Below are positions 28,451-32,700 of a stretch of DNA of 64,000 nt, piece by piece. The DNA lies in contig NZ_JAVFVR010000003.1 in assembly GCF_030929595.1 (NCBI RefSeq), positions 1 through 64,000 of the forward strand, read 5' to 3'. Position 1 is the first letter of the stretch. Each line of letters starts with the position of its first letter. The notes below the pieces were generated by a model that ran no database searches, was not told where the DNA came from, and worked only from the letters and a program-made list of their open reading frames with translations. A program made the position numbers and the translations under genes. Source of the DNA: Flavobacterium sp. LHD-85. Lineage in GTDB: Bacteria > Bacteroidota > Bacteroidia > Flavobacteriales > Flavobacteriaceae.

Positions 28451-28798
28451 CTATATTTCTTTTTTAACAAGCATAAAATAATCATTGTCCAAGGAACGGT
28501 AGCCTTGGTCATACAAGAAATAATATGTATTTCCTGTCTTGGTCTGTAAGATGTTTGTAAAGAACTCAAAATCAAATCCTTTTGTTAATAGTTTGTCTCG
28601 AGAAGCTTTAGATTTTCCATCTACATTTAACTCTGCCAAAATACGGTAATTTTTGCGTAACTTGTTGTTTATATTTCGCATGAAATTCGTGCTATCTTTA
28701 TTTATTTTGTTATTGTAGGCATTTCGACAACTATCAGAACAGAATTTCTTGTCTTCTCGGCCGAAAATTTTGGTAGAACATTCGAGGCATGTTTTCAT
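28451..28798 (-). CDS. Small zinc-ribbon protein
   Basis: 115 residues. An N-terminal treble-clef-like site has C4, C7, C20 and C24 (CLEC and CSDSC), followed by a basic helical segment and a C-terminal part with FYFLYDQGYRSL-like aromatic residues. I do not recognise a named family. The start overlaps the stop of the GNAT-nitrilase gene by ATGA, so the two are translationally coupled. It may act on the same substrate or bind nucleic acid. Confidence 0.85.
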   Translation of the reverse strand: MKTCLECSTKIFGREDKKFCSDSCRNAYNNKINKDSTNFMRNINNKLRKNYRILAELNVDGKSKASRDKLLTKGFDFEFFTNILQTKTGNTYYFLYDQGYRSLDNDYFMLVKKEI

Positions 28799-30324
28799 GA
28801 ATTCATTTTTTTAATTTCGTAAAGATCTGTTCTTCGGTCTTTTAATGTTTTTACGCTACCATGTTCGTGAAGTTCTTTCAATAAATTTAAATCAACATCA
28901 ACAATAAGCGTCATTTCTGTGTTTGGAGTAGCTTCAGCTTTGATTCCATTACTTGGAAAAGCAAAATCAGATGGCGTAAATACAGAAGATTGCGCATATT
29001 GAATATCCATATTGTTCACTTTCGGAAGATTTCCAACGCAACCTGCTATGGCTACATAACACTCATTTTCGATGGCGCGTGCTTGCGAACAATGTTTTAC
29101 ACGGGTATAACCATTTTGAGTATCGGTCAAAAATGGTACAAAGAGAATATCCATTCCTTCATCTGCCAAAAGTCTCGAAAGTTCTGGAAACTCGACATCA
29201 TAGCAAATTAGAATTCCGATTTTTCCACAATCGGTATCAAAGGTTTTAAATTGAGATCCACCTTTCATTCCCCAATGTATAACTTCGTTGGGTGTGATAT
29301 GAATTTTGGTATACATTTCTGAAGTTCCGTCTCTTTTGCATAAAAAGCCAACATTATAGAGATTTCCGCCTTCTAAATAAGGCATACTTCCTGTAATAAT
29401 ATTGATGTTGTATGAAATGGCAAATTCCTGAAACTTTTTTCTAATAGGATCAGAGTGGCGAGCCAATTCTCGAATGGCTTCTGCTTCAGATAAGTGATTA
29501 TAATCGGCCATTAAAGGCGCAATAAACAATTCCGGAAATAAAGCAAAGTCAGAACCATAACCCGAAACAGCATCAATAAAAAATTCTGCTTGTTCAAAAA
29601 GTGCTTCAACATTATTAAGCGGACGCATCTGCCATTGAATTAATCCTAAACGGATAATGTTTTTCTTTAAATTAATCAGTTTCGGACTATCATCATAGTA
29701 AATATTGTTCCACTCTAATAAAACTGCAAATTCTTTCGATTCTTCGTCACCTTCCAAATAATTTTTGATGACTCTCAAAACGTGAAAATCATTGCTCAAT
29801 TGAAAAGAAAGAACAGGATCATACAATTCTTTGTTGCGCACTTTTTCTATATACGCTTTTGGAGACAGTTTTTTGGCGTGTTCTCTGTAATTTGGAATTC
29901 TTCCCGCAAAGACAATTGCTTTTAAATTCAGCTGTTCGCAAAGCTCCTTTCTTGCATCGTACAATCGGCGTCCTAAACGTAAGCCTCTATAATTTGGGTG
30001 AATAAAAACATCTATTCCGTATAAAATTTCCGCATTTGGATTATGGGTCGAGAAGGTATAGTTACCGCTAATCTGCTGATAATTATGTCTTTTTTCTACC
30101 AATTTTTCATCAACAATAAGAGATAGGGCAGAGCCAACTACTTTTCCATCAACCAAAATAACCAGCTGTCCTTCTGGAAAAATAGAAAGCAGTCTTTCTA
30201 TGTCGTCAGATCCCCAATAAGAATCTGCCATTTCTGGATATGATTCAATCATCGATTTCTTTAATTGTCTATAGTCCTCAATTTCAAGGTTTCGTAACTC
30301 TACTTTTTTAATTTTTGCCTGCAT
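28795..30324 (-). CDS. GNAT-nitrilase fusion (N-acetyltransferase/carbon-nitrogen hydrolase)
   Basis: 509 residues. The N-terminal GNAT domain (~8-160) contains HPNYRGLRLGRRLYDAR, a typical acetyl-CoA loop. The C-terminal nitrilase domain (~222-505) has the E-K-C triad E265 (FPELF), K340 (YTKIHITP) and C374 (LICYDVEFP). The fusion is a known Bacteroidota architecture, probably an amidohydrolase acting on an acylated amine. No signal peptide, so cytoplasmic. It has a well-formed promoter and is coupled to the zinc-ribbon gene. Confidence 0.93.
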   Translation of the reverse strand: MQAKIKKVELRNLEIEDYRQLKKSMIESYPEMADSYWGSDDIERLLSIFPEGQLVILVDGKVVGSALSLIVDEKLVEKRHNYQQISGNYTFSTHNPNAEILYGIDVFIHPNYRGLRLGRRLYDARKELCEQLNLKAIVFAGRIPNYREHAKKLSPKAYIEKVRNKELYDPVLSFQLSNDFHVLRVIKNYLEGDEESKEFAVLLEWNNIYYDDSPKLINLKKNIIRLGLIQWQMRPLNNVEALFEQAEFFIDAVSGYGSDFALFPELFIAPLMADYNHLSEAEAIRELARHSDPIRKKFQEFAISYNINIITGSMPYLEGGNLYNVGFLCKRDGTSEMYTKIHITPNEVIHWGMKGGSQFKTFDTDCGKIGILICYDVEFPELSRLLADEGMDILFVPFLTDTQNGYTRVKHCSQARAIENECYVAIAGCVGNLPKVNNMDIQYAQSSVFTPSDFAFPSNGIKAEATPNTEMTLIVDVDLNLLKELHEHGSVKTLKDRRTDLYEIKKMNS

Positions 30325-30858: not shown

Positions 30859-31031
30859 ATATTCCATTAGGAATATCTCATCGGTAGAAAAAAAAGGTTT
30901 TGTTTACGTTGTGTCCTGTAGGGACACCTGATTTATGGAATAACAGATCTTTTTCACCAATCAAACGTTCCTACGGAACGTAAAACCGCAATTTAAATTG
31001 AATTCTACCAATGAGACATTCCTACGGAATG
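30859..31031. repeat. Four regularly spaced hairpins
   Basis: Hairpins ATATTCC/GGAATAT (30859-30876), GTGTCC/GGACAC (30911-30927), CGTTCC/GGAACG (30966-30980) and CATTCC/GGAATG (31017-31031) begin 51 to 55 bp apart. Most have a short TAC-like loop, and the linkers resemble each other in part. Confidence 0.88.
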
Positions 31032-31875: not shown

Positions 31876-31908
31876 AAAAAACCCACCAGAGAAATCTGAT
31901 GGGTTTTT
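31876..31908 (-). terminator. Terminator after the small Cys-rich gene
   Basis: Stem AAAAACCCAcCAGA / TCTGaTGGGTTTTT with a GAAA loop, reading on the minus strand just after the stop at 31919. Confidence 0.85.
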
Positions 31909-31918
31909 CTATATCGCG

Positions 31919-32098
31919 TTAAGCAGTTTTTTTGAATAAGTCAAACATAGGACAGCGCGAGCAGCGTTTCTTTTCGCTCTTTTTATATTTCTCACAGCAA
32001 GAAGATTTACAGTTTTCAATCTTCTTAATTTTATCAAGGATATCTTTCTTTTTCTTTTTATCCTTTTTTTTGTCCTTGTCTTTTTCTTTCTTGCTCAC
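31919..32098 (-). CDS. Small Lys-rich protein with Cys cluster
   Basis: 59 codons from a GTG at 32098 to a TAA at 31919, with a good ribosome-binding site (AGAGGA, ending 5 bp before the GTG on the minus strand). The N-terminal half is almost only Lys, Asp and Glu (KKEKDKDKKKDKKKKK). The C-terminal half reads ENCKSSCCEKYK and KRCSRCPMFDLFKKTA, five Cys in C-x3-CC and C-x2-C spacing that suggests a metal or Fe-S site. It has its own terminator. A plus-strand open frame overlaps it (31932-32117), but composition, RBS and Cys spacing favour the minus frame. Function unknown. Confidence 0.75.
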   Translation of the reverse strand: MSKKEKDKDKKKDKKKKKDILDKIKKIENCKSSCCEKYKKSEKKRCSRCPMFDLFKKTA

Positions 32099-32181
32099 TT
32101 TTTCCTCTGAATTTTAAAAACAGAGACAAATATAAATCAAAAAAGTTATTTTTAAACATTCTAAATAAACTTTAACTTTTT

Positions 32182-32700
32182 TTATTTAGGATTGATAGCA
32201 ATTGAACTTGTAACTGTTAATTGCTGAATATCACGATCAAACAAATAAAGTCCACCTTTGTCATCGCCAATTAAGTTGATTTTATCCAAAATAGATTTAG
32301 CTGTAGCCTCTTCCTCAATTTGTTCAGAAACGTACCATTGCAAGAAATTGTGTGTCGCATAATCTCTTTCTTCAAAAGTAATGTGCACTAATTCGTTGAT
32401 AGATTTCGAAACAAAAAGTTCGTGATTGTAAAGCTCCTCAAACATCTCTTTAAAAGTAGTATAAGTTGTTTTTGGCGCTTTAAGATCTGTTACCTGAGCG
32501 TGTCCTCCGCGTTCGTTTACATACTTAACTAGTTTAAGCATATGTGCGCGCTCTTCATCTGACTGTGTATACATAAATTGAGAGATTCCCTCTAATCCTT
32601 GTACTTCAGCCCAACAAGCCATAGAAAGATACGTTTGCGAAGATTCTGCTTCTATGCGGATTTGCTTGTTTAAAGCCGATTCAATATTTTTTGCTAACAT
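32182..32700 (-). CDS. ftnA: Ferritin
   Basis: 172 residues, usual bacterial ferritin length. Four-helix bundle with ferroxidase ligands in QIRIEAESSQTYLSMACW, YTQSDEERAHMLKLVKYV and the late YVSEQIEEEATAKSILDKI. It stores iron as a 24-mer in the cytoplasm. Single gene; neither a haem-binding motif nor a Fur-like operator was recognised. Confidence 0.95.
   Translation of the reverse strand: MLAKNIESALNKQIRIEAESSQTYLSMACWAEVQGLEGISQFMYTQSDEERAHMLKLVKYVNERGGHAQVTDLKAPKTTYTTFKEMFEELYNHELFVSKSINELVHITFEERDYATHNFLQWYVSEQIEEEATAKSILDKINLIGDDKGGLYLFDRDIQQLTVTSSIAINPK

Follow-up and report, generated by a model that had tools for sequence, protein, structure and literature searches.

A conserved cysteine-rich small protein encoded behind FtnA-type ferritin genes of Flavobacteriaceae and its possible role in iron release

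Introduction

What is the task of a 59-codon gene, lysine-rich at its beginning and cysteine-rich at its end, that lies directly behind a ferritin gene? The question is raised by an open reading frame (ORF) at positions 31919-32098 on the minus strand of a stretch of 64,000 nucleotides from Flavobacterium sp. LHD-85 (contig NZ_JAVFVR010000003.1, positions 1 to 64,000; genome of 5.64 Mb in 39 contigs). The whole stretch is called the window here and the ORF the small gene. A preliminary description, made from the letters of the window alone, had singled it out as an unannotated protein gene. The release of iron from ferritins is generally poorly understood, and bacterioferritin together with Bfd is the notable exception (PMC12363616; here and below, statements from the literature refer to excerpts of the cited articles). 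We report that the small gene is confirmed, at the sequence level, as a real conserved gene evolving as a protein, and we tentatively propose that its product might serve a non-haem ferritin in iron release.

Materials and Methods

Two separate sets of sequences were used. The fetched set comprises 81 loci, including a few duplicates; because most of them are Flavobacterium, they are not independent of one another. Among them, L001 and L003 both represent the locus of the window itself, and L002 very probably duplicates L036. Counts of starts, promoter, box and open frame over 78 loci leave out L001, L002 and L053, and the set of 79 loci used for the ratio of non-synonymous to synonymous polymorphism (pN/pS) leaves out L001 and L002. 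The family-level sample consists of 199 genomes from 198 genera of the same family as the window, evenly spread and, unlike the fetched loci, independent of one another; its 81 profile matches are distinct from the 81 fetched loci. Forty diverse members of the small-protein family were chosen by hand out of 45 sequences. Literature searches covered open-licence PMC articles.

Results

The small ORF is a conserved gene

The small gene runs from a GTG at 32098-32096, the sole possible start within its open frame, to a stop at 31921-31919. The preliminary description had credited it with a good ribosome-binding site, a terminator of its own and an overlap with an opposite frame, and all three hold: an AGAGG stretch stands just before the GTG, a strong hairpin of 13 pairs lies 3' of the gene (-17.6 kcal/mol, z-score -5.5, none of 200 shuffles as stable), and an ORF at 31932-32117 occupies the opposite strand. 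That the ORF is protein-coding, as had also been claimed, is borne out at the sequence level by codon conservation. In the 25-codon core, pN/pS over 79 loci is 0.19 in frame, whereas four of the five alternative frames give 1.13-2.02; a chance ORF was rejected on this codon conservation. The fifth frame, that of the opposite-strand ORF, gives 0.28; since its third codon positions coincide with those of the small gene, pN/pS cannot judge this ORF and the value lends it no support. Of the 78 loci, 66 have no stop in the opposite frame along the entire gene and 75 have none along the core; the minus-strand frame is open in all, by selection.

The small protein has one match only in its own genome. 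Under a simple choice rule, 43 of the 78 loci start with TTG, 24 with GTG and 11 with ATG, and an unusual start is therefore the norm in this family. The non-ATG starts, 67 in all, show an enduring bias of the family towards weak start codons. One locus (L053, 3980-4120) carries a stop in the Lys-rich stretch just upstream of the core, caused either by faulty sequencing of an A-rich run or by genuine loss.

A CC-x10-C-x2-C core on a cationic tail

With 23 lysines, a net charge of +15 and a calculated pI (isoelectric point) of 9.8, the protein has the Lys-rich, strongly charged N-terminus noted earlier; across 78 family members the net charge ranges from 12 to 20. Its five cysteines are spaced as C-x3-CC and C-x2-C, combining into CC-x10-C-x2-C. 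This spacing alone is common enough that the window's six reading frames contain two open instances, and we consider the motif to be more than chance because it is conserved, as the pN/pS value indicates. The preliminary description had pictured a cluster of five cysteines and had looked to relatives for a conserved pattern. The spacing is present and such a pattern does exist, CC-x10-C-x2-C being found in 81 of 81 fetched loci. The five-cysteine unit did not stand: only 22 of the 40 diverse members have C-x3-CC, which we rejected as a functional unit, and those without it often carry a cysteine after CP. Invariant over the 40 members are, in window numbering, Met1, K31, C34, C35, K37, K40, K44, R45, C46, C49, P50, D53 and L54. 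By this alignment, the invariant unit is CC...C-x2-C-P and the first cysteine of C-x3-CC is dispensable. Divergent members behind less similar ferritins (for example KKKKCCKKYKKKGKSNCKRCPKL) keep the x10 spacing in 15 of 18 cases, with x8 to x11 variants in distant members, and their N-terminal part is not Lys-rich.

Pfam scans of the 40 members returned chance-level matches only, no nucleic-acid-binding domain was recognised among them in Pfam or NCBIfam scans, and a sequence search of the PDB gave no relatives at E<=10. Escherichia coli FhuF binds a 2Fe-2S cluster via C-C-x10-C-x2-C, an arrangement termed unprecedented (PMC8068687). In the open-licence literature, a search for the motif yielded only the FhuF paper and one on a Shewanella siderophore protein, a search for ferritin-associated ferredoxins of Bacteroidetes yielded none, and no paper was recognised, by its listing, as describing the small protein. 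Ten C-terminal tails could be compared from 12 FhuF genes (L213 and L216 gave none). Two of the tails, that of E. coli included, lack the final proline and five have C-x3-C instead of C-x2-C; they have CC-x-[RK]-[YFH] and mostly C-P in common with the small-protein family. The signature CC-x-[RK]-[YFH]...C-x2-C-P, chosen after the FhuF tails had been viewed, is present in 40 of 40 diverse and 18 of 18 divergent members, as against 37 of 80000 shuffles.

Association with FtnA-type ferritin

The search for homologues beside the same genes, which the preliminary description had proposed, was productive: 75 of the 81 fetched loci have a ferritin gene upstream of the small gene, in the same orientation. 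Among the 199 family genomes, it stands 0-600 bp upstream on the same strand of 55 of the 81 profile matches and of 11 of 49 sub-threshold matches, and all of the latter 11 have the Cys motif. The small gene was found behind 53 of 69 ferritins of at least 66% identity, 13 of 25 at 47-65% and none of 29 below 47%. Inspection of 21 of the 28 close ferritins with no detected small gene gave three more copies. Counted by genome and with profile matches only, 63 genomes have both genes, 17 the small gene only, 31 the ferritin only and 88 neither (Fisher p 1.4e-13, for genomes that are not fully independent).

The window ferritin is 38% identical to E. coli FtnA and has a net charge of -10. Glu17, Tyr24, Glu50, His53, Glu94 and Glu130, named for FtnA (PMC7762939), are all kept, and by its sequence the protein is of the non-haem FtnA type. 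The genome encodes a second, distant ferritin (G000:C3:250169-250651, 34% identical) with no small gene behind it. In E. coli K-12 (L293, 2717-3491), ftnA is followed by a small convergent gene, yecH (DUF2492). A DUF2461 gene was rejected as functional partner, being downstream in just 36 of the 81 loci. At three loci where the ferritin is missing (L158, L159 and L165, in genomes G031, G007 and G100), the small gene adjoins what we take to be an acyl-CoA dehydrogenase gene; genes presumably for a ferredoxin reductase and a 2Fe-2S ferredoxin lie within about 1.3 kb and are a possible electron source.

In the family, the profile search found the small gene in 80 of 199 genomes at E<=0.01, and a search with a 32-residue core in 108 of 199 at E<=1, many of them marginal. 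Fifty close relatives come from named genomes, 49 of them under the label Flavobacterium and one under that of a Flavobacteriaceae bacterium. A broader profile matched 28 of 296 genomes of the phylum at E<=0.01, 19 from the same family and 9 from other families of the class; the motif is seen in seven of these nine, and in one of them (L264) a ferritin lies no more than 2.5 kb away, on the opposite strand. In two genomes from a single further family (L200, L201), the small gene follows a ferritin of 71% identity; a strong match with no ferritin nearby comes from a genome of yet another family in the order (L202, L269).

A promoter-like region with a Fur-like box

The sequence between the ferritin and the small gene, TTATTTAGAWTNNNTAAAAATAA, contains a box resembling binding sites of Fur. 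Of 78 loci, 77 have the motif TTATTT[AG]GA; in 73 of these 77, TAnnTTTG, which we take to be a Bacteroidota promoter consensus, comes after it, 24-26 or 34-36 bases from the start of the box. For Riemerella anatipestifer Fur, the consensus ATTTAGAATTATTCTAAAT has been predicted, and Fur bound selected promoters in electrophoretic mobility shift assays (PMC5609570). The window box matches this consensus, which comes from another genus, at 15 of 19 positions. For 76 of 78 small genes, versus 140 of 1560 Markov controls, the best match within 110 bp upstream reaches at least 14 of 19, and the six loci with no ferritin upstream also carry the box (14 to 16 of 19).

In the own genome, the family-derived box is found, allowing one mismatch, at 11 places, and the reversed control gave 1 match. 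Of the ten other places, four are at genes for TonB-dependent receptors (a divergent PepSY_TM gene shares one of these), one is before an extracytoplasmic function (ECF) sigma gene, one before a DUF4198 gene, two near an ankyrin and a ribonucleotide reductase gene, one before a small protein with no Pfam match and one between the 3' ends of two genes. Judged by these sequence elements, the small gene has a promoter-like region, box and terminator of its own, separate from the ferritin, and its regulation by iron via the Fur-like box is likely.

Bfd-type domains and other features of the window

Fer2_BFD (PF04324) has no match among the 40 members, and a Fer2_BFD search found no stand-alone Bfd in the 199 family genomes. 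The domain is present in 49 of these genomes at E<=0.001, always in ORFs of at least 220 residues, most of 838-1210 residues; by size alone, we take the large ones to be nitrite/nitrate reductases. The coordinates of the small gene and of the features around it are collected in Table 1. Elsewhere in the window, short repeats with TTCCTACGGAA lie at 30956-31031, in the intergenic region beyond DUF2461, and one copy forms a small hairpin. A 509-aa ORF at 28795-30324 on the minus strand presumably encodes, by its look, an acetyltransferase fused to a nitrilase-type hydrolase.

Table 1. Features at the small-gene locus (window coordinates)
Feature	Position	Strand	Basis
Intrinsic terminator of the small gene	31876..31909	-	Hairpin folding, terminator scan
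Small gene: 59 aa from a GTG start, Cys core behind a Lys-rich N-terminus	31919..32098	-	ORF, pN/pS, relatives
CC-x10-C-x2-C core (residues 34-49), then Pro	31952..31999	-	81/81 loci; invariant alignment columns; FhuF motif (PMC8068687)
AGAGG, ribosome-binding-like stretch before GTG	32104..32108	-	Sequence; kept in most close relatives
TATATTTG, fits TAnnTTTG promoter element	32127..32134	-	TAnnTTTG after box in 73/77 loci
Fur-like box TTATTTAGAATGTTTAAAAATAA	32146..32168	-	Match to Riemerella Fur consensus (PMC5609570)
Ferritin, FtnA type, 172 aa, directly upstream of the small gene	32182..32700	-	Pfam Ferritin 1.4e-39; ferroxidase residues kept vs E. coli FtnA

Discussion

The small gene is widespread and tied to FtnA-type ferritin by position, co-occurrence and a starvation-type box, and its Cys motif gives a direct chemical prediction. 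We propose, with somewhat less than even confidence, that it encodes a mini iron-sulphur protein, induced by iron starvation, through which non-haem ferritin gives up its iron in the way that bacterioferritin does through Bfd; the metal, the redox activity and the binding to ferritin are what we infer. When iron is low, Fur would leave the box and the small protein would be made independently of the ferritin. The four core cysteines would bind a [2Fe-2S] cluster as in FhuF, and the positive tail (+15) would dock on the acidic ferritin shell (-10). The cluster might then relay electrons from a reductase to the ferric core, whereupon iron would exit as Fe2+. The job of Bfd on haem bacterioferritin would here be done by an unrelated mini-protein on non-haem ferritin.

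Several observations weigh against the proposal of a ferritin-releasing protein, beginning with the pairing itself. Seventeen of the 80 genomes with the small gene have no ferritin of at least 47% identity, and the ferritin-less small genes sit in other recurring neighbourhoods, beside what we take to be metG, tex, a histone-deacetylase-like gene or recQ; the small gene is therefore not wholly bound to FtnA-type ferritin. No profile match was found in 31 of the 94 genomes with a ferritin of at least 47% identity. In 14 of the 31, a divergent copy adjoins the ferritin, which leaves 17; this split uses matches accepted for ferritin adjacency and is biased as a test. Within the same genus, the broader profile finds no match in 5 of 18 genomes. 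As for the box, ferritin upstreams also reach at least 14 of 19 in 28 of 72 cases. The exact Riemerella consensus occurs at 10 places of the own genome (each counted on both strands) versus 2+2 control matches, with few clearly iron-related neighbours, which is weaker than the family-derived box. The AlphaFold model is not usable (mean predicted local distance difference test score, pLDDT, 65.5; predicted template modelling score, pTM, 0.32).

The comparison with FhuF is burdened as well. No FhuF model (TIGR03951, PRK10647, TIGR03950) reaches its cut-off, and the N-terminal enzyme domain is absent. Weak matches were seen among the 40 members for TIGR03950 (39), TIGR03951 (10) and PRK10647 (2), with a best E of 0.0014; the window protein scores 15 bits versus a cut-off of 137.9 for TIGR03950, over the last 28 positions only. 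FhuF_C (PF11575, 21 positions) gave three matches at E<=10 in the own genome, none at the small gene, and is not among the Pfam matches of the 40 members. With a hidden Markov model (HMM) of the ten FhuF tails, the family did not rise above shuffles with fixed cysteines: the family median was reached by 944 of 2000 shuffles with composition correction and 524 of 2000 without it, and the count for the divergent members, likewise without it, was 234 of 1800. FhuF homology by profile is thus unsupported. As the motif is common to both and the HMM does not separate the family from shuffles, the same [2Fe-2S] cluster type as in FhuF is by analogy a fair prediction, and common descent is not implied.

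The same motif might serve other purposes. A stand-alone FhuF-like domain could reduce ferric siderophores or chelates from co-regulated TonB receptors, the ferritin merely buffering the freed iron; this would suit the FhuF-type cysteines, the box in common with TonB-receptor genes and the persistence of the small gene in the 17 genomes with no close ferritin. We regard it as unlikely, because the siderophore-binding domain of FhuF is absent, none of the 99 genomes in the phylum sample, the own genome among them, gave a match to FhuF itself (TIGR03951), and most loci adjoin ferritin and not siderophore genes. We also think it improbable that the protein binds Zn or Fe(II) as a metallochaperone or buffer with no redox cluster, passing metal to or from ferritin. 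In favour of this, the protein is small, cysteine-rich and very basic, CC and C-x2-C can bind Zn, and both position and box suit iron handling; against it, the spacing exactly matches a known [2Fe-2S] protein and recurs in all 81 fetched loci, the x8 to x11 variants lying further off.

The Lys-rich tail, the net charge of the 78 members and the Fur-like box would also fit an iron- or redox-responsive nucleic-acid binder, whose tail would attach to RNA or DNA, ferritin mRNA being one example, and whose cluster would sense iron; given that the domain scans of the 40 members recognised no known binding domain and that the tail of divergent members is not Lys-rich, this seems quite improbable. Finally, a short, low-complexity ORF with a non-ATG start and a mostly stop-free opposite frame might suggest a chance ORF, or a real gene on the opposite strand, which we consider barely conceivable with a pN/pS of 0.19, length, stop and cysteines conserved across genera, and a promoter-like region and terminator that point to the minus strand.

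A more specific form of the iron-release proposal is more doubtful: that the dedicated starvation-induced release protein of non-haem ferritins in a large family might be a free-standing micro-domain of the FhuF [2Fe-2S] type, about 25 residues long, which is carried on a cationic tail and is not related to Bfd. If the iron-release proposal holds, the CC-x10-C-x2-C segment would suffice for a redox cluster with no FhuF enzyme domain, which would help to explain the odd cluster of FhuF. In the more specific form, the small protein would be both a dedicated electron partner for an FtnA-type ferritin, of which we know none, and a very small [2Fe-2S] protein. A FhuF-type motif and a Bfd-like logic are each known ingredients; searches of the open-licence PMC literature turned up no free-standing micro-domain that is paired with a non-haem ferritin.

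Among known systems, Bfd is likewise a small Cys-rich protein whose gene adjoins that of an iron-storage protein. Bfd is expressed differentially from bfr although the genes are adjacent on many genomes (PMC7762939), and the separate Fur-like box of the small gene would provide the same logic here. The two differ in that the small protein has no Fer2_BFD domain and has a non-haem FtnA-type ferritin as its partner, whereas that of Bfd is the haem bacterioferritin. IMEF encapsulin operons encode [2Fe-2S] ferredoxins (PMC8346489) and thus likewise combine a ferredoxin with an iron store other than bacterioferritin, but these ferredoxins are described as Bfd homologues, whereas our family has no Fer2_BFD match. 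With FhuF, the small protein has in common the CC-x10-C-x2-C spacing at the C-terminus and, as its box suggests, repression by Fur. FhuF is a protein of 262 residues with a siderophore-binding helical domain, whereas the small protein consists only of the motif on a Lys-rich tail, encoded beside a ferritin.
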